From positions 3,279,001 to 3,343,000 of the forward strand of contig NZ_CP086727.1 of the NCBI RefSeq assembly GCF_020906275.1: 64,000 nt of DNA. Reading direction: 5' to 3'. Shown piece after piece: positions 41,729 through 48,423 of this stretch. This DNA is from Parasphingorhabdus litoris DSM 22379 (GTDB taxonomy: Bacteria > Pseudomonadota > Alphaproteobacteria > Sphingomonadales > Sphingomonadaceae). Both the position numbers and the translations under genes were made by a program. Each line of letters starts with the position of its first letter. Position 1 is the stretch's first letter. The notes beneath the pieces were generated by a model. The model saw only the letters and a program-made list of their open reading frames with translations, had not been told where the DNA came from and did no database searches.

Positions 41729-43528
41729 CTAAAGGTCATCGCAAAACGTATAAGTGGCCTCGGTTGTGGATCTCCCCTTCACTTTGATGTCGGCAACTTT
41801 CCTGAACGATAATGACGGTGCCGCCTCGACAGTTGTCTGACCGATTAATATATCAACGGACAGTTCATCACACTGCCCCTCCAAACGGGAAGCCAGATTG
41901 ACAGCATCCCCCAGCACCGAATAGTCAAATCTGCGGTCTGATCCCATGTTACCAACCACACAAGTACCGGTATTTATACCAATGCCCATACGGATGCGTG
42001 ACACGTTGGCTCCGGTCGGCAGCATCTCTTGAATCTCACGATTGATATTGTCCATTTCGGCCAACATCTCGCGCGCAGCTTCAAGCGCATGCAGGGCATG
42101 ATTTGGATCATCCAGCGGAGCATTCCAAAAAGCCATAATACAATCGCCCATATATTTGTCGATTGTACCGCCATGTCTCAGAATGATGTTCGATAATGGT
42201 GTAAGAATCGCGTTGATCATTCGGGTTAACCCCTGCGGATCGTCCTGCATCGCCTCCGAAATCGCGGTAAACCCGCGAATATCTGAAAATAATATTGTCA
42301 GTTCGCGGTTCACGCCACCCAGATTGAGCAGGCTCGGATCATCCGCAATTTTCTGAACCATTTCCGGAGCGAGATATTGGCCAAAAGCATTCTGCACTTC
42401 ACGCCGGCGATTTTGTTCACCTGCAAAATCTCGGGTCGCAATGGCAGCGACACTCAATATCAATGCGGTGGAGGGAGCCACGGGTCCGATCCAGTACCGG
42501 CCATATTGCAGCAATAGCCAGCAAGCACCAACTATACCCAGCAATGATATTGCCAGGAGCAACGCCTTTTTCCCCGGTGCATTGGGGCGCGAAACCAACA
42601 GTGCCCATGCGGCTGCGATAATGATGAGCACAAGCGAAAGCCAGCGAGGCGCCTGACCAATGGACAACCCGGTGCGCAAGTTGTCGAAAATCGTCGCTTG
42701 AACTTCAATCCCGGGGGTTAATTGCCGCGACCGTAAAGTATAGGCCGTTTCAAAAGCGTCAATGCCACCCGTGGCAACATCAGCATTTGTCTGCAACGCA
42801 AAACCGATAATGACAATTTGATCCTTGAGATAGTCCGGCGGCAAATAAGCCTCCGGATCCAGCGCTTGGTAGTAAGAAATGGTGGGGTAACTGCCCGCTG
42901 GTCCAAAATGCTGAATCCGACGCGGTATCGGATCGGTTTTTACAGATATCCCACTCGTAATCTCGAGCAGCTGGGTCATAAAGCCGTCGGAGTAGACAGG
43001 CATGTTGCGTAGCACACCATCGCCATCCATCGACAGACTGGCGATACCGGTACGGGCGCCGGCCGTGATCAACGCAGGCATAGGTTCCGTCCGCACCAGC
43101 GTGCTGCCATAGGGTCGTTCAATCAGGCTTTCATCGGCAGCCAGGACAATATCAGGACCCATAGCATCCACCAGTGCCTGATCTTGTGTCTTGTCAGCTG
43201 GCTCGGCAAACAGAACGTCAAAAGCAATGGCCTTGGTGCCGGCATTGCGCAACTGGGCAATTAACTCGGCATGGCGTTCCCGTGACCATGGCCATTGCTG
43301 GCCAATCGCATCCATGCTCGGTTCGTCGATCGCAACCAATGTAATGCCCGGCTGTTCTGGCAATGCTGGTGCGATTGTCGACAAATAATCAAAGCTTCGT
43401 CCATCTAGGTCGCGCAGGAATGTGGTCAGACTCAACAACCCTATCAACAGCGCCACCACTGCTACCATGAACACCCCAGACAGCTTGTGACGCGGTGAAA
43501 ACATTTCTTTGATTTCCGGTATAGTCAT
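41729..43528 (-). CDS. CHASE2-domain class III adenylate/guanylate cyclase
   Basis: The 599-residue membrane protein makes a cyclic nucleotide, most likely cAMP. An N-terminal helix (about 18-37) leads into a periplasmic CHASE2 sensor (about 40-285, with I-T-L-V-A-I-D-E-P-S-M-D). Three membrane helices (about 290-370) are followed by a class III catalytic domain (about 395-595). Metal-binding Asp residues are in F-S-D-I-R-G-F-T and M-G-D-C-I-M-A-F, the substrate Lys is in I-D-K-Y-M-G-D, and V-L-G-D-A-V-N-L-A-S-R-L carries the transition-state Asn/Arg. Its ATG directly follows the stop of the FecR-barrel gene (TAGATG), so the two are coupled. Confidence 0.93.
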   Translation of the reverse strand: MTIPEIKEMFSPRHKLSGVFMVAVVALLIGLLSLTTFLRDLDGRSFDYLSTIAPALPEQPGITLVAIDEPSMDAIGQQWPWSRERHAELIAQLRNAGTKAIAFDVLFAEPADKTQDQALVDAMGPDIVLAADESLIERPYGSTLVRTEPMPALITAGARTGIASLSMDGDGVLRNMPVYSDGFMTQLLEITSGISVKTDPIPRRIQHFGPAGSYPTISYYQALDPEAYLPPDYLKDQIVIIGFALQTNADVATGGIDAFETAYTLRSRQLTPGIEVQATIFDNLRTGLSIGQAPRWLSLVLIIIAAAWALLVSRPNAPGKKALLLAISLLGIVGACWLLLQYGRYWIGPVAPSTALILSVAAIATRDFAGEQNRRREVQNAFGQYLAPEMVQKIADDPSLLNLGGVNRELTILFSDIRGFTAISEAMQDDPQGLTRMINAILTPLSNIILRHGGTIDKYMGDCIMAFWNAPLDDPNHALHALEAAREMLAEMDNINREIQEMLPTGANVSRIRMGIGINTGTCVVGNMGSDRRFDYSVLGDAVNLASRLEGQCDELSVDILIGQTTVEAAPSLSFRKVADIKVKGRSTTEATYTFCDDL

Positions 43529-46500
43529 CTAGAAACGAACCTCCGCTCCAATGACCACGGTCAGCCGCGGCGCGGCAACACTAGTCGCTGAATCATATCG
43601 CTTGTCCAGTAAGTTCAACAACGACAGATTGATGGCTAAACGTTGATCTAATGGTTCCCACTCCAGCCGGGCATCGACGAGTGCGGCATCTTCGATCGAC
43701 AAACCCAGGTCATCCCTTTGTCCGCCAATATAGCTGCCCGATATGCTTGCCTTCAGCCTTACGGGCGCTGGCAGGCTCCAAACAAGTGAAGCGCGGGCAA
43801 AATGGCCGGGAACAAATGGCAGCTTATCTCCAACTTCATAGGTGCAACCAAATGAAAGATTAAGGTCCGCCGTAGCACAACCAAAAGTTGGACCGATGGC
43901 TTGATTGACATTGTCACCCGATACGAAGCTGCCTTCAATCGCGCTGTCGGTATAGGCATAGGAGGCCCGCAACCCAATATTTCCAGGTAGCCATAAATTG
44001 GCTTCCGCGCTAATCCGTTTTACCGATACCGGAAAGCCGGTAATATCCACCGGCAAATCAGGAATAGCATAAGTTATCGCCTCCAATTGCTGGTCTTGAT
44101 ATTCGACGGTGGTAAAAAATTGATCAGACCATTCGGCATCCCATCGCATGATGAAACTGTCATTGCGACTCTCGCGAAAGCTGGGCGCACTGTTGGCCTG
44201 CAAACCAACCACAGCAGCGGGACGAAAGCTGAAATCGAATAACCCGCGGCTCTGGCGCAAGAAAGCCGCGCGCAGCCATTGGCCCTCTATCGGTTCATAG
44301 GAAGCACCAAGCCGAAAATTGAGGGGGTAGCGTGTATCGCCGGCAATCGTGCGGGCAATGATTTCCATCTGTCCCTGCATAACCAGCGGCTCTATCGGAT
44401 GATAACGCAAATCAAGGTAAGCGCGTGCCTCTTTGGTCCGTACATCGACGCGATCAGGCACCAGATTGGGGTCAGCGATATTCTGCTCGAAATCAAAGAC
44501 ACTGTTCAAGTCCCGTGTCTTTACATCGCTCCACTCCCCGCCGATCCGCAGGTCCAACGGTCCGAAACCTTTTGCATAATTCGCACTAAGATAGCGAAAA
44601 GTGCTGCGGCTTTGCGACAGCTGGTCCGCAAAAGGCAGCGTGCTGGAAAGGTCAAGCGTTATGAGGTTTAGCTGCGATCTCCCAAATCCTCCGCCAATAG
44701 TCAGTTGATCGCGATAGCCAAATTTGTGATTATATAGCCCGAACAGGAAATTCCTTTCGGTTTCACGGTCTTCTTCGAGGTCAAATCCATTGTCCAGAAT
44801 GCTGACGATATTGGATTCCGACAAGCTGCTATTGCGGTTCAGCTCTCCGTTCAGGACGATGCTGTCTGATGGCGTTATTTCCAGTCCCACATAGCTGCTC
44901 AAAAACCAGCTATCGCCACCGCGCCGCCGCGAAAATGGGCTGATATCCGGGCGCCGCCGTTCATCGGAAATATCGGTATAATTGCCGCGCATCCAGATAG
45001 CCGTAGGCAACGGCGCATCAAAAATAGTGTCCAGTCCGCCGCCAATTACACGCTCGTTCCGCAATTCTTCGCTTAGAAGTGCCGTGCCCACAAAAGGTTC
45101 GAAAAAATTGCCATTGTCGAACCGTAAGCGCCGCTGGGAACTGGCAACGCTTAACGGATCAAGGGCCACGCCCTGCAGGAAACTCGAAAGTGCTTCGAAG
45201 CTTTCCCCCTGCTCGCTTCCAACTGCCGCTTGCTGCGCATTGTAGCTGCCATCGGGGTTGCGGATCAGGAAAGGGCCAGGTGTTTGGTTGATCGCCTGGT
45301 CGAAATAGCTTGAGGGTGTGAAGCTGTCGAACACCCGATCCGCATAATAGCGGCCCCAACCTTCCAAATCCAGGAAACGAAAAGCCTGAGAGACGAGGCT
45401 GCCGGTTTCGCGATTCTCGGACAAGTTGACATATTCACCGCCGCGCCCGCGATAACGGTTCAAAGCCTCGCGTGCATTCCGAATGGCGTTGTCCGCCGCG
45501 AAATCCTGTAAGGCAACACCGGTGCGGGCGAGCGCTATGGCGGGGTTCAGAGGATCAAGCCGGTCGGCTGTGTCAAATTGCTGTTCGGCCAGCCCCGTCT
45601 CGCCCATTTCATGATGAACCTGCGCAAGGCCAAGAAAGCCCATACCATAGTCCGGATTGTGAGCCGATGCGGCCAAAGACGCATCCAGCGCCTGATCCAA
45701 ACGATCTTTGCGGCGCCAATATTGCGCCAAAGCATTGCCGGCCAGCGCATTGCCAGGATCCATCTCCAAAGCTTTGTCGATTTCGGATTTTGCTGCAGAT
45801 AATCTATTTTGCTGCAGCAAGATTTCTGCCCGCATGCTGACCATTTCTGCATCATAAGGCCGCGCGCCGAGCGCCTGGTCCACAAGCTGACCCGCTTCTT
45901 TCAGCCCACCAATAGCCATCCAGTTTTTTGCCTGCGATTTCTGCGCCAAAAAATTGTCGGGATTGGCAGCAATAACCGGGGCCAGAAGGTCGCGCGCTGC
46001 CTTGGGTTTACCACGATAGTCGCGCATCAGATCCGCTTCGCCGATGGTCAGTGTGATATTGTCCGGAAAAGCTTCTCGCGCGTTGGCTATGGTGTCGAAT
46101 GCGGTATCAGGATCGCCCAATAATGTCTCGACATTGGCCTTCACCTGATAGAGCGGCACATAGTTGGGAAAGTTCTGAATCCCTGTTTGCGCGCTGTCTT
46201 TCGCTGCGCGCAAATCGCCTTCATAAGCATCAATCAGCGCAAGTACGAGATAGCTCTCGGCACTATCCTCCAGCAACGGCTGTGATGGCGCATTCCCCAA
46301 TTGGATCATGGCAACATAGCTACCATAGACGCCGGCCAACTGGTCTGCGGTATTGGTGGATAGCGTCATCTGTTCAAACAACCGAAGCGCCCCTTCCCAG
46401 TCTCCACTGACCGCCGATCGCCGGGCGCTTACAAAATTTTCGCTGTCATTGTTCAGGAGATCCAGCCCGCTCGCCAGATTGACGAAATAGAGCATCTGTT

Positions 46501-47095
46501 CTCGCCCCGTGGGGTTCACCAATAATGTTCGCGTTGGCGCTTGCCCGCGCAAGACGGTAGCAGCCTGCCCTGCTTCTACAATCAATCCTCCCTGTTCATT
46601 CGATAGCTCAACTGCTCCTGAAAAAACCTGCAATCGGCTGGAGTCTGCATCGGCCTCTATGGCCCATTCGGTACCGCGAATAGCCGCCGTTGCCGACGGG
46701 GTTTCGATAGACAGATTTGTTCGGTTTCGAGGGCTTCGCCCCCATGCTTTTCCGCGTTGCAGAGATAGTGTGGAAGCCCCGCGTCTGGATACTCGGCGGA
46801 CAACCATCACCGAATTTCTACCCAACCGAACCTGGGTCCCATCGACAAAAACTATAGCGAGAGTGCCGGCCGCTCTGGTGCGCAAGACATCCCCGGCTTT
46901 AAGATCCTGCTGACGCACGGCCTTTTGCCAATTCTTACGTGGCAGCAGCGTTGCTTGCTCTCCCCCTTTTGTCGCCGTGATCTTTCCGGACAGCGGCGCC
47001 GCGCGCTTCACTGGCTGTGCTGCAATCGCTTGCAGAAAAACGATTTGGGTCAATATGATCGTCAGAAAAGATAATAGAATTGCCCGAAGTTTCAC
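43529..47095 (-). CDS. FecR-domain, TPR and outer-membrane beta-barrel protein
   Basis: A very large, 1188-residue envelope protein. A signal peptide (residues 1-26) is followed by a FecR-like domain (about 60-185, with G-D-V-L-R-T and a T-P-S-A-T-A-A-I-R-G-T-E-W signature). Next come about ten TPR-like helical repeats (220-560), a linker, and a C-terminal half (about 640-1188) of alternating strands ending in Phe, typical of an outer-membrane beta-barrel. No TonB box or plug is evident. The gene is immediately upstream of a CHASE2 cyclase, pointing to a surface- or periplasm-sensing partnership. Domain calls are firm except the barrel, which is inferred from pattern and C-terminal Phe. Confidence 0.85.
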   Translation of the reverse strand: MKLRAILLSFLTIILTQIVFLQAIAAQPVKRAAPLSGKITATKGGEQATLLPRKNWQKAVRQQDLKAGDVLRTRAAGTLAIVFVDGTQVRLGRNSVMVVRRVSRRGASTLSLQRGKAWGRSPRNRTNLSIETPSATAAIRGTEWAIEADADSSRLQVFSGAVELSNEQGGLIVEAGQAATVLRGQAPTRTLLVNPTGREQMLYFVNLASGLDLLNNDSENFVSARRSAVSGDWEGALRLFEQMTLSTNTADQLAGVYGSYVAMIQLGNAPSQPLLEDSAESYLVLALIDAYEGDLRAAKDSAQTGIQNFPNYVPLYQVKANVETLLGDPDTAFDTIANAREAFPDNITLTIGEADLMRDYRGKPKAARDLLAPVIAANPDNFLAQKSQAKNWMAIGGLKEAGQLVDQALGARPYDAEMVSMRAEILLQQNRLSAAKSEIDKALEMDPGNALAGNALAQYWRRKDRLDQALDASLAASAHNPDYGMGFLGLAQVHHEMGETGLAEQQFDTADRLDPLNPAIALARTGVALQDFAADNAIRNAREALNRYRGRGGEYVNLSENRETGSLVSQAFRFLDLEGWGRYYADRVFDSFTPSSYFDQAINQTPGPFLIRNPDGSYNAQQAAVGSEQGESFEALSSFLQGVALDPLSVASSQRRLRFDNGNFFEPFVGTALLSEELRNERVIGGGLDTIFDAPLPTAIWMRGNYTDISDERRRPDISPFSRRRGGDSWFLSSYVGLEITPSDSIVLNGELNRNSSLSESNIVSILDNGFDLEEDRETERNFLFGLYNHKFGYRDQLTIGGGFGRSQLNLITLDLSSTLPFADQLSQSRSTFRYLSANYAKGFGPLDLRIGGEWSDVKTRDLNSVFDFEQNIADPNLVPDRVDVRTKEARAYLDLRYHPIEPLVMQGQMEIIARTIAGDTRYPLNFRLGASYEPIEGQWLRAAFLRQSRGLFDFSFRPAAVVGLQANSAPSFRESRNDSFIMRWDAEWSDQFFTTVEYQDQQLEAITYAIPDLPVDITGFPVSVKRISAEANLWLPGNIGLRASYAYTDSAIEGSFVSGDNVNQAIGPTFGCATADLNLSFGCTYEVGDKLPFVPGHFARASLVWSLPAPVRLKASISGSYIGGQRDDLGLSIEDAALVDARLEWEPLDQRLAINLSLLNLLDKRYDSATSVAAPRLTVVIGAEVRF

Positions 47096-47241
47096 GGTCT
47101 CTTAATACCCCCAGAACCAGCGAATTGAGCCAATGCTTGGCGACAATCGGAATGTTTTGCAATGACCGATATCACATGGGTCAGCATAGCCCGATTGCAC
47201 TTAGTCTTATCGTGCCAAGTAACTTGCAATCATCATCCCTA

Positions 47242-48423
47242 CTATTTTGCTAATTTGAGCTGGGGTCTACGGCGATCTTCGATTGCGACTACCAATCGAT
47301 TTCGGCCTTCGGATTTTGCCTGATAGAGCGCCTGGTCAGCACGGCGCAATGCCATTGCGAAGCTTTCATCCGGGAACAAAGCCGCCAATCCGATGCTGGC
47401 GGTGACGCTTCTGTTATCACCAAGTTCGGGGTGCGTTATCATGCCGATTGAAAGCCGGAGATGCTGCGCTACCAATTGGCTGTCTTCTGCGTCCATCTTG
47501 TTGAGAATGATAACAAACTCTTCGCCGCCAATTCTGGCAATGGTGCCCAGCTCCTTAGTCAGTGTTTGTAACAAATCGGCAGAGCGAATGAGCACCTGGT
47601 CACCAGCACTATGTCCGTACAGATCATTCACTTTCTTGAAATGGTCCAGGTCAAGAATCATGAGCGAGCGGCCAAGATTTTTCTTGTCACCCAGACTCTC
47701 GTTCACATATTTATCTAATCCGCGGCGATTAAACAGACCGGTTAATGGATCTCTGATCGACGCAAGCAAATGCTTCTCGATAAGCTTGTTTCCCATGGCC
47801 AATATCATGGTCATACCGCAAGCCAGTCCCCAAAGGGCGCTGCTGGAATGCAACAGAGCAGCGTAAGAGGAAGCGCCATAAGAAGTAGCCGTATAACGCT
47901 CACCAAGTAGTCCATAAACCAAGGCTGGCCGAAGAAAATAGGTTACACACAGACCCGCAAACACCCAGAACCATGCTTTTTCAATTAGATTTCTGCGCTT
48001 CTTCCACAACACCGGCAATGTGCAGGCCAGCAGTAATCCGCCAGTGCTGCTGGAGAAAATTGACCGCTGAATGATATCAGGCTGTTTCAAGCTGAACCAA
48101 AGCAATGATCCGAAACCAAAAAGGAATATCGAAATCAACAACATCCATGGTGGTCTAGTCTTATGATATTCAAACACACCTAAGGCCCAAAAACCGCTCA
48201 CGAGCCAAAAGAGCGTTTTGGCAAAAATGTCTGAGATGACCGGGTCGAAGGCGGACCGGCTCAGATCAAACAAAAAAGATCCAAGTCCGGACAGATAAGC
48301 AAACGCGATCCAGGCGGGAGCTTTTTGATCGCGATCATAAGCATAAAGCGCCATAAAAACGATCGCGAAGACCGTTAGAATAACGATCATCAAGATTCGA
48401 AAGACGAGACTTGCTTCGGCCAT
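47242..48423 (-). CDS. Seven-helix membrane GGDEF protein
   Basis: The 393-residue protein has about seven hydrophobic helices (residues 8-215) and a C-terminal diguanylate cyclase domain (about 220-385) with D-L-D-H-F-K for metal and an active G-G-E-E-F motif. The R-x-x-D inhibitory site is absent (K-E-L-G at that place), so product feedback may be weak. It ends 146 bases upstream of the FecR-barrel gene on the same strand. It likely signals c-di-GMP from a membrane-sensed cue. Confidence 0.9.
   Translation of the reverse strand: MAEASLVFRILMIVILTVFAIVFMALYAYDRDQKAPAWIAFAYLSGLGSFLFDLSRSAFDPVISDIFAKTLFWLVSGFWALGVFEYHKTRPPWMLLISIFLFGFGSLLWFSLKQPDIIQRSIFSSSTGGLLLACTLPVLWKKRRNLIEKAWFWVFAGLCVTYFLRPALVYGLLGERYTATSYGASSYAALLHSSSALWGLACGMTMILAMGNKLIEKHLLASIRDPLTGLFNRRGLDKYVNESLGDKKNLGRSLMILDLDHFKKVNDLYGHSAGDQVLIRSADLLQTLTKELGTIARIGGEEFVIILNKMDAEDSQLVAQHLRLSIGMITHPELGDNRSVTASIGLAALFPDESFAMALRRADQALYQAKSEGRNRLVVAIEDRRRPQLKLAK

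Follow-up and report, generated by a model that had tools for sequence, protein, structure and literature searches.

A sphingomonad gene pair for a putative FecR-TPR-barrel receptor and a CHASE2 cyclase of the NsrA-CyaK type

Overview of the receptor-cyclase pair

In a 64,000-nucleotide window of the Parasphingorhabdus litoris DSM 22379 genome (contig NZ_CP086727.1, positions 3,279,001 to 3,343,000), two abutting genes on the minus strand encode a FecR-TPR-barrel protein and a CHASE2 class III nucleotide cyclase. Judged by sequence, they are a sphingomonad relative of an already known kind of trans-envelope receptor pair, NsrA-CyaK of Sinorhizobium meliloti (pSymB), because the homology is colinear with a pair that has been tested genetically. 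An NsrA-type receptor system, studied so far in plant symbiosis, is thereby placed in sphingomonads.

We consider it likely that the two proteins form a trans-envelope relay of the NsrA-CyaK type. The receptor would be secreted, its 22-strand TonB-receptor-like barrel would insert in the outer membrane, and its TPR solenoid and FecR domain would lie in the periplasm, where an outside ligand, or the state of the barrel, would alter the presentation of the FecR domain through the TPR-FecR part. FecR would then contact the periplasmic CHASE2 domain of the inner-membrane cyclase, and the cytoplasmic class III catalytic domain would shift its cAMP output, to be read by a CRP-type regulator. For the window pair, we infer both the ligand and the direction of control, while association and conservation point to a putative contact between FecR and CHASE2.

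Gene layout and homology to NsrA-CyaK

The receptor ORF starts with GTG and runs on the minus strand from 47095 to 43529 (exact coordinates, 1188 aa), and it is followed by the cyclase ORF, which starts with ATG and runs from 43528 to 41729 (599 aa). A gap of 146 nt (47096-47241) separates the receptor gene from an upstream diguanylate-cyclase gene. At the junction (43526-43531, minus strand) TAG is followed directly by ATG in the sequence (letters TTC TAG ATG), so the stop codon of the receptor abuts the start codon of the cyclase, as an earlier note on this DNA had read it. This arrangement suggests translational coupling, and the gene junctions of homologous receptor-cyclase pairs mostly abut or overlap as well.

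When plasmids were searched by tblastn, an S. meliloti gene matched 97% of the window receptor query, and the annotation of CP140934 places nsrA before cyaK with a one-base overlap. Comparison with S. meliloti 1021, using domain limits set by hand, gave 45/94 aligned residues identical in FecR (48%), 99/341 in the TPR part, 143/476 in the barrel (30%), 145/280 in CHASE2 (52%), and 130/229 in the cyclase part (57%). The window receptor is thus homologous to NsrA across nearly its whole length, with the gene for a CHASE2 class III cyclase directly downstream. In the excerpts of the S. meliloti studies that we drew on (PMC7529298, PMC13001267), nsrA-cyaK is described as an outer-membrane receptor with its cognate CHASE2 adenylate cyclase, acting via cAMP and Clr; reporter genetics is described in which the cAMP-dependent response to an outside protein signal requires both genes, and ribosomal protein uL2 is named as the candidate signal. 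One of these excerpts (PMC7529298) describes NsrA as an outer-membrane beta-barrel receptor that additionally serves CyaD1/D2, and reports 57 acidic residues in its loops, proposed to bind uL2.

The two systems share their domain order, are colinear over 97% of the receptor, have genes that abut, and are 52-57% identical in CHASE2 and cyclase. They differ in host, in the barrel, and in the stretch before the TPRs, which is about 60 residues shorter in the window protein. The modelled outer loops of the window receptor hold 22 acidic (D/E) and 12 basic (K/R) residues among 157, compared with the 57 acidic residues reported in the NsrA excerpt, the two loop predictions having been made differently. 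Because the barrel is only 30% identical and the modelled loops seem less acidic, the ligand of the window receptor may differ from that of NsrA. A signal from legume nodules is improbable as the ligand in sphingomonads. Moreover, a PycTM relative lies upstream in 40 of the best 80 of 389 homologous loci, but in none of the sphingomonad loci fetched (blastp).

Receptor domains and the predicted barrel

Several regions can be recognized in the receptor, namely a hydrophobic, signal-like N-terminal segment (hydropathy), a FecR domain at residues 69-163 (Pfam, 59.2 bits against a cut-off of 24), a TPR solenoid at about 207-550 (TPR_19, 47.7 bits against 25), a helical linker at about 567-650, and a barrel at 664-1187. 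The last residue is Phe, which is frequent at the C-terminus of outer-membrane proteins, and the receptor is probably located in the outer membrane. The description of a 1188-residue FecR-TPR protein therefore proved exact in coordinates and length, and both domains were confirmed by Pfam.

An AlphaFold2 model was built from 73 sequences (the window protein and those of 72 of the 80 homologous loci), with a mean pLDDT of 84.2 and a pTM of 0.83. In this model a beta-rich FecR part spans 37-191 and a helical TPR solenoid 207-550; a short linker of helices follows, and long strands then occupy 664-1187. In that stretch 22 long strands were counted with two short ones excluded, and longer and shorter loops alternate. 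The 50 Foldseek matches listed for this model are outer-membrane transporters, which we take to be TonB-dependent transporters, with FecA at rank 7; these 50 overlap the model only in part (TM-scores by target of 0.44-0.60 and rmsd of 6.3-11.4). In a profile-profile comparison that took in 15 of the 48 TonB-receptor matches in the genome, the barrel of the receptor family matched TonB receptors from the same genome with 99.1% probability over 367 columns, whereas the controls gave 9.7% (reversed profile) and 0.1% (TPR part). The model, the Foldseek matches, and this profile match all bear out the beta-barrel-like half that had been proposed from the sequence alone.

The match to the alignment of full-length TonB receptors starts at column 213, which we read as past the plug, and residues 540-670, covering the linker, had no match to full-length TonB receptors (0.1% probability). 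Neither STN nor Plug matched the window receptor (Pfam, E up to 1) or eight members of its family (E up to 0.01), and the anti-sigma domain DUF4880 was not found in the window receptor (Pfam). In the model, the barrel looks like a 22-strand TonB-receptor-type barrel at the level of the fold. Since the barrel matches TonB receptors, the linker does not, and STN, Plug, and anti-sigma domains were not detected, it appears to be a TonB-receptor barrel minus plug and STN that carries its own FecR domain on the same chain. The receptor thus looks like an iron-uptake receptor of the FecA kind joined to the FecR domain with which such receptors usually communicate.

A TPR part followed by a barrel is also the layout of export porins of the PgaA/BcsC type, and the large protein could be such a porin, with the cyclase merely regulating its use. 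NCBIfam does give weak scores through the TPRs (37.2 bits for PgaA and 19.9 bits for BcsC), but these are far under the cut-offs of 366.65 and 858. PgaA and BcsC have barrels of 16 strands and are not known to carry a FecR domain, which does not fit a protein whose barrel has 22 strands by count and matches TonB-dependent transporters, and no polysaccharide synthase family was found among the nine flanking proteins scanned. We regard an export porin as very improbable.

Topology and catalytic residues of the cyclase

The 599-residue cyclase consists of a transmembrane segment (TM, 13-41), a CHASE2 domain (25-310; Pfam, 136.3 bits against a cut-off of 26.3), further TMs within 293-365, and a cyclase domain (409-593; Guanylate_cyc, 83.3 bits against 21.9). 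Hydropathy and an AlphaFold2 model (pLDDT 85.0, pTM 0.63) agree on one N-terminal TM, CHASE2, three TMs, and the catalytic domain, and the modelled class III fold resembles CyaB, CyaC, and Cya2. Because both give this order, CHASE2 can be predicted on sound grounds to face the periplasm, in keeping with the earlier note.

The catalytic residues of class III adenylate cyclases, whose roles we take to be the usual ones here, are present in the window protein as D416, K458, D462, S537, N544, and R548. In an alignment of 59 rows (the window protein and those of 58 loci), each of the six columns has a letter in 58 rows, and 57 or 58 of these retain the residue. Alignments place Glu at the K458 position in 2w01 (titled guanylyl cyclase Cya2) and Lys in the artificial 6fht chain, and Lys at this position presumably favours ATP. 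The product of the window cyclase is probably cAMP. Across the cyclase family, CHASE2 was found in 59/59 members and the cyclase domain in 58/59, and one member (L091) is truncated by a contig end.

The genome gave 12 cNMP-binding matches, including a CRP homologue that matches solved CRP/FNR proteins such as 7pza (named putative cAMP-binding protein), and this homologue is a plausible candidate reader of cAMP. Clr-type sites in the window were not in excess (10 found, compared with a mean of 9.47 in shuffles).

Conservation and distribution of the pair

A scan of named genomes, with both search patterns lying within the FecR part, yielded 389 relatives, from which the best 80 were kept. The FecR-barrel gene is followed by a CHASE2 cyclase gene in the same orientation in 78 of these 80 loci; three loci are cut by contig ends. 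The two loci without a cyclase neighbour (L148 and L149) belong to Microvirga genomes that also hold a paired locus (L138 and L108), and L108 has two tandem receptor copies ahead of one cyclase. Pairing is therefore not strictly one-to-one, as the additional service of NsrA to CyaD1/D2 also indicates. By record title, Rhizobiales and Sphingomonadales account for most hosts of these best 80 loci and Parvularculaceae for some.

A search of 60 relatives found 14 with a full-length receptor gene, and CHASE2 is adjacent in all 14, one of them being cut by a contig end. Some match was obtained in 44 of the 60; besides the 14 full-length genes and one remnant, these are just short FecR or TPR matches. 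In the remnant (relative G031), receptor residues 175-410 run directly into cyclase residues 468-598 and both genes are decayed, which is consistent with joint loss of receptor and cyclase. With a threshold of E up to 1e-15, a class-wide search with a single sequence gave matches in 2/190 genomes, one of them apparently the window's own; since at most three candidates were scored per genome, this result says only that the distribution is patchy. The co-occurrence that the earlier note proposed to look for is thus seen in both sets of genomes, in a protein for which both a barrel and a FecR fold are predicted.

Mean pairwise identity is 0.64 for FecR, 0.57 for CHASE2, 0.64 for the cyclase domain, 0.46 for the TPR part, and 0.36 for the barrel, as calculated from two alignments of different make-up after rows at least 90% alike were dropped (64/73 receptor and 46/59 cyclase rows kept). 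As an argument for FecR-CHASE2 contact, these values are biased, because the search patterns lie in FecR and the cyclase domain is equally conserved. Variation is greatest in the barrel, in keeping with ligand sensing.

FecR and CHASE2 proteins across the genome and the phylum

The genome encodes four CHASE2 proteins and six proteins with a FecR domain. Three of the six are classical, with a DUF4880-FecR architecture, and their genes are preceded by an ECF sigma gene and followed by one for a TonB receptor. The other three adjoin CHASE2 proteins, which are the window cyclase, a PAS kinase accompanied by a response regulator, and an EAL protein. Accordingly, three of the four CHASE2 proteins adjoin a FecR protein, and the fourth, likewise a cyclase, abuts a TPR-CHAT protein. 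One of the FecR proteins beside CHASE2 has LysM instead of the barrel, and a third shows FecR as its sole domain.

The classical sets bear on an alternative in which the FecR-barrel protein, as a variant of the receptors used in cell-surface signalling, continues to act on an ECF sigma factor and the cyclase is an unrelated neighbour. A FecR domain, a barrel of TonB-receptor type, FecA among the best structural matches, and the three sets themselves would agree with this; the likeness to FecA-FecR-FecI extends to FecR and barrel. In the window protein, unlike that system, FecR and barrel share one chain and the partner is a CHASE2 cyclase. DUF4880, STN, and Plug gave no match, the linker is unlike TonB receptors, no sigma family occurs among the nine flanking proteins scanned, and the cyclase follows in nearly all of the best 80 loci, so we give a sigma-factor role hardly any credence. 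The earlier note's view that an envelope protein is tied to a cyclase and not to the FecI route accordingly stood, in line with the absence of a sigma family and DUF4880, but its description of the route as unexplored did not, since excerpts of published work already cover nsrA-cyaK (PMC7529298, PMC13001267) and FecR-CHASE2 clusters (PMC9239204, PMC5192318).

Two of the FecR-CHASE2 arrangements in this genome have parallels in the latter two excerpts. In Campylobacterota, a CHASE2 cyclase is reported to be clustered with a FecR-domain outer-membrane protein, as in the window, but the TPR protein is separate there and the cluster includes a phosphodiesterase (excerpt of PMC9239204). The BiofilmReg operon of Burkholderia comprises a response regulator, a LysM-FecR protein, and a CHASE2 kinase (excerpt of PMC5192318); a FecR protein adjoins a CHASE2 protein here too, and a similar arrangement occurs in the window genome at L055, but the output is a kinase and peptidoglycan-binding LysM takes the place of the outer-membrane barrel.

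Because LysM-FecR and FecR-only partners exist in the genome, an outside ligand is unnecessary for the FecR-CHASE2 module as such. CHASE2 itself might sense the state of the periplasm or membrane; the FecR-TPR-barrel protein, as a tether or a negative partner, would then report on the integrity or assembly of the outer membrane and not on a ligand. The barrel-less partners and the patchy distribution of the receptor-cyclase pair would both agree with this. On the other side, a protein signal added to S. meliloti acts via NsrA and CyaK, according to the PMC7529298 excerpt, and the variability of the barrel fits ligand sensing; we regard sensing by CHASE2 alone as unlikely and favour the ligand-responsive relay.

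To gauge the association more widely, 40 CHASE2 loci, taken in about even steps through the best-scoring matches listed for the phylum, were examined with a home-made FecR profile. A FecR-like domain was found within about 5 kb in 13/40 loci. In 9 of these it is upstream on the same strand, at a distance of up to 138 nt in 8 cases, and in the other 4 it is downstream on the opposite strand; none was found in the fetched DNA of the remaining 27/40. The expectation by chance, computed from the FecR density of the window genome, is about 0.7 of 40 within 5 kb. The count is rough, because upstream sequence was short for several loci and one family supplied many of them, and the association across the phylum is clear but partial. 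FecR may well be a common partner of CHASE2 in the periplasm. We tentatively propose that FecR may be a general periplasmic effector of CHASE2 whatever the output (cyclase, histidine kinase, or EAL), and that NsrA-type receptors may have arisen when this FecR was joined, via the TPRs, to a TonB-receptor barrel whose plug and STN domain had been lost, the logic of FecA-FecR having moved from sigma factors to second messengers. What seems to be new in this reading is FecR as a general partner of CHASE2 and the NsrA-type barrel as a plug-less TonB-receptor barrel; the excerpts retrieved for CHASE2 with FecR and for NsrA with TonB-dependent contain no statement of either. According to an excerpt of a 2016 paper (PMC5192318), it is not known what is recognised by CHASE2 domains. 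With three CHASE2 proteins of three different outputs each beside a FecR protein, compared with three FecR proteins in classical sets, CHASE2 recognition becomes a simple binding question.

Genomic setting

The pair borders a syntenic block that is conserved from 47.2 to about 52 kb of the window in three relatives (G016, G027, and G031) without the pair at the equivalent site. The shared block stops at 47242-47297, and no similarity continuing across the pair was found in these three. The diguanylate cyclase (47242-48423) was considered as a third member and rejected, as its best match in the near relative G016 shares a contig with the pair but is about 505 kb away from it, G027 has good matches despite lacking a full-length receptor gene, and just 2 of the best 80 of 389 homologous loci gave a gene related to it. 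A conserved neighbourhood was also sought by comparing 12 flanking window genes with 34 loci (E up to 1e-20), several of which are doubles, and the sole match was the diguanylate cyclase in L046 and L082, one place under two ids. Promoter and terminator scans were at or below chance. The flanks of the pair in 13 relatives fall into several distinct contexts, and the pair behaves as a self-contained two-gene cassette of patchy distribution.

A PycTM relative beside nsrA-cyaK

Upstream of nsrA-cyaK, the Sinorhizobium meliloti homologues of the receptor and cyclase genes of the window, lies a gene in the opposite orientation for a relative of PycTM proteins (Pycsar effector family, PF18967), as at loci L035 (4259-4804) and L037 (4262-4801). 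Among the 80 homologous loci L079-L158 examined by blastp, which are the best 80 of 389 relatives of the window receptor, 40 have this gene in the same position and orientation, and these 40 come from rhizobial records. The PF18967 assignment was made by Pfam for three examined proteins, one of them from pSymB of S. meliloti ml28. The PycTM relative may act as a membrane effector for the product of the CyaK-type cyclase. A full-text literature search for Pycsar in connection with Sinorhizobium returned no match.

Other CHASE2 partners and receptor loci

Two further places in the window's own genome hold CHASE2 genes, both on the minus strand. At L057 (5867-11061), the start of another CHASE2 cyclase gene overlaps by 1 base the stop of a gene for a 1046-residue TPR-CHAT protein, which is a CHASE2 partner type distinct from FecR. 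At L056 (5557-9431), a FecR protein gene precedes a CHASE2-EAL gene, and this order suggests FecR control of c-di-GMP breakdown; in several relatives, weak FecR matches adjoin CHASE2 genes similar in length to that CHASE2-EAL gene.

Elsewhere, a receptor gene of 74% identity, together with its cyclase, occurs in a record titled as an Oceanobacter MAG (L083); our guess is that the title may reflect a mislabelled bin. In Microvirga zambiensis (L108, 6001-13557), two receptor genes stand in tandem, with the cyclase following the second copy.
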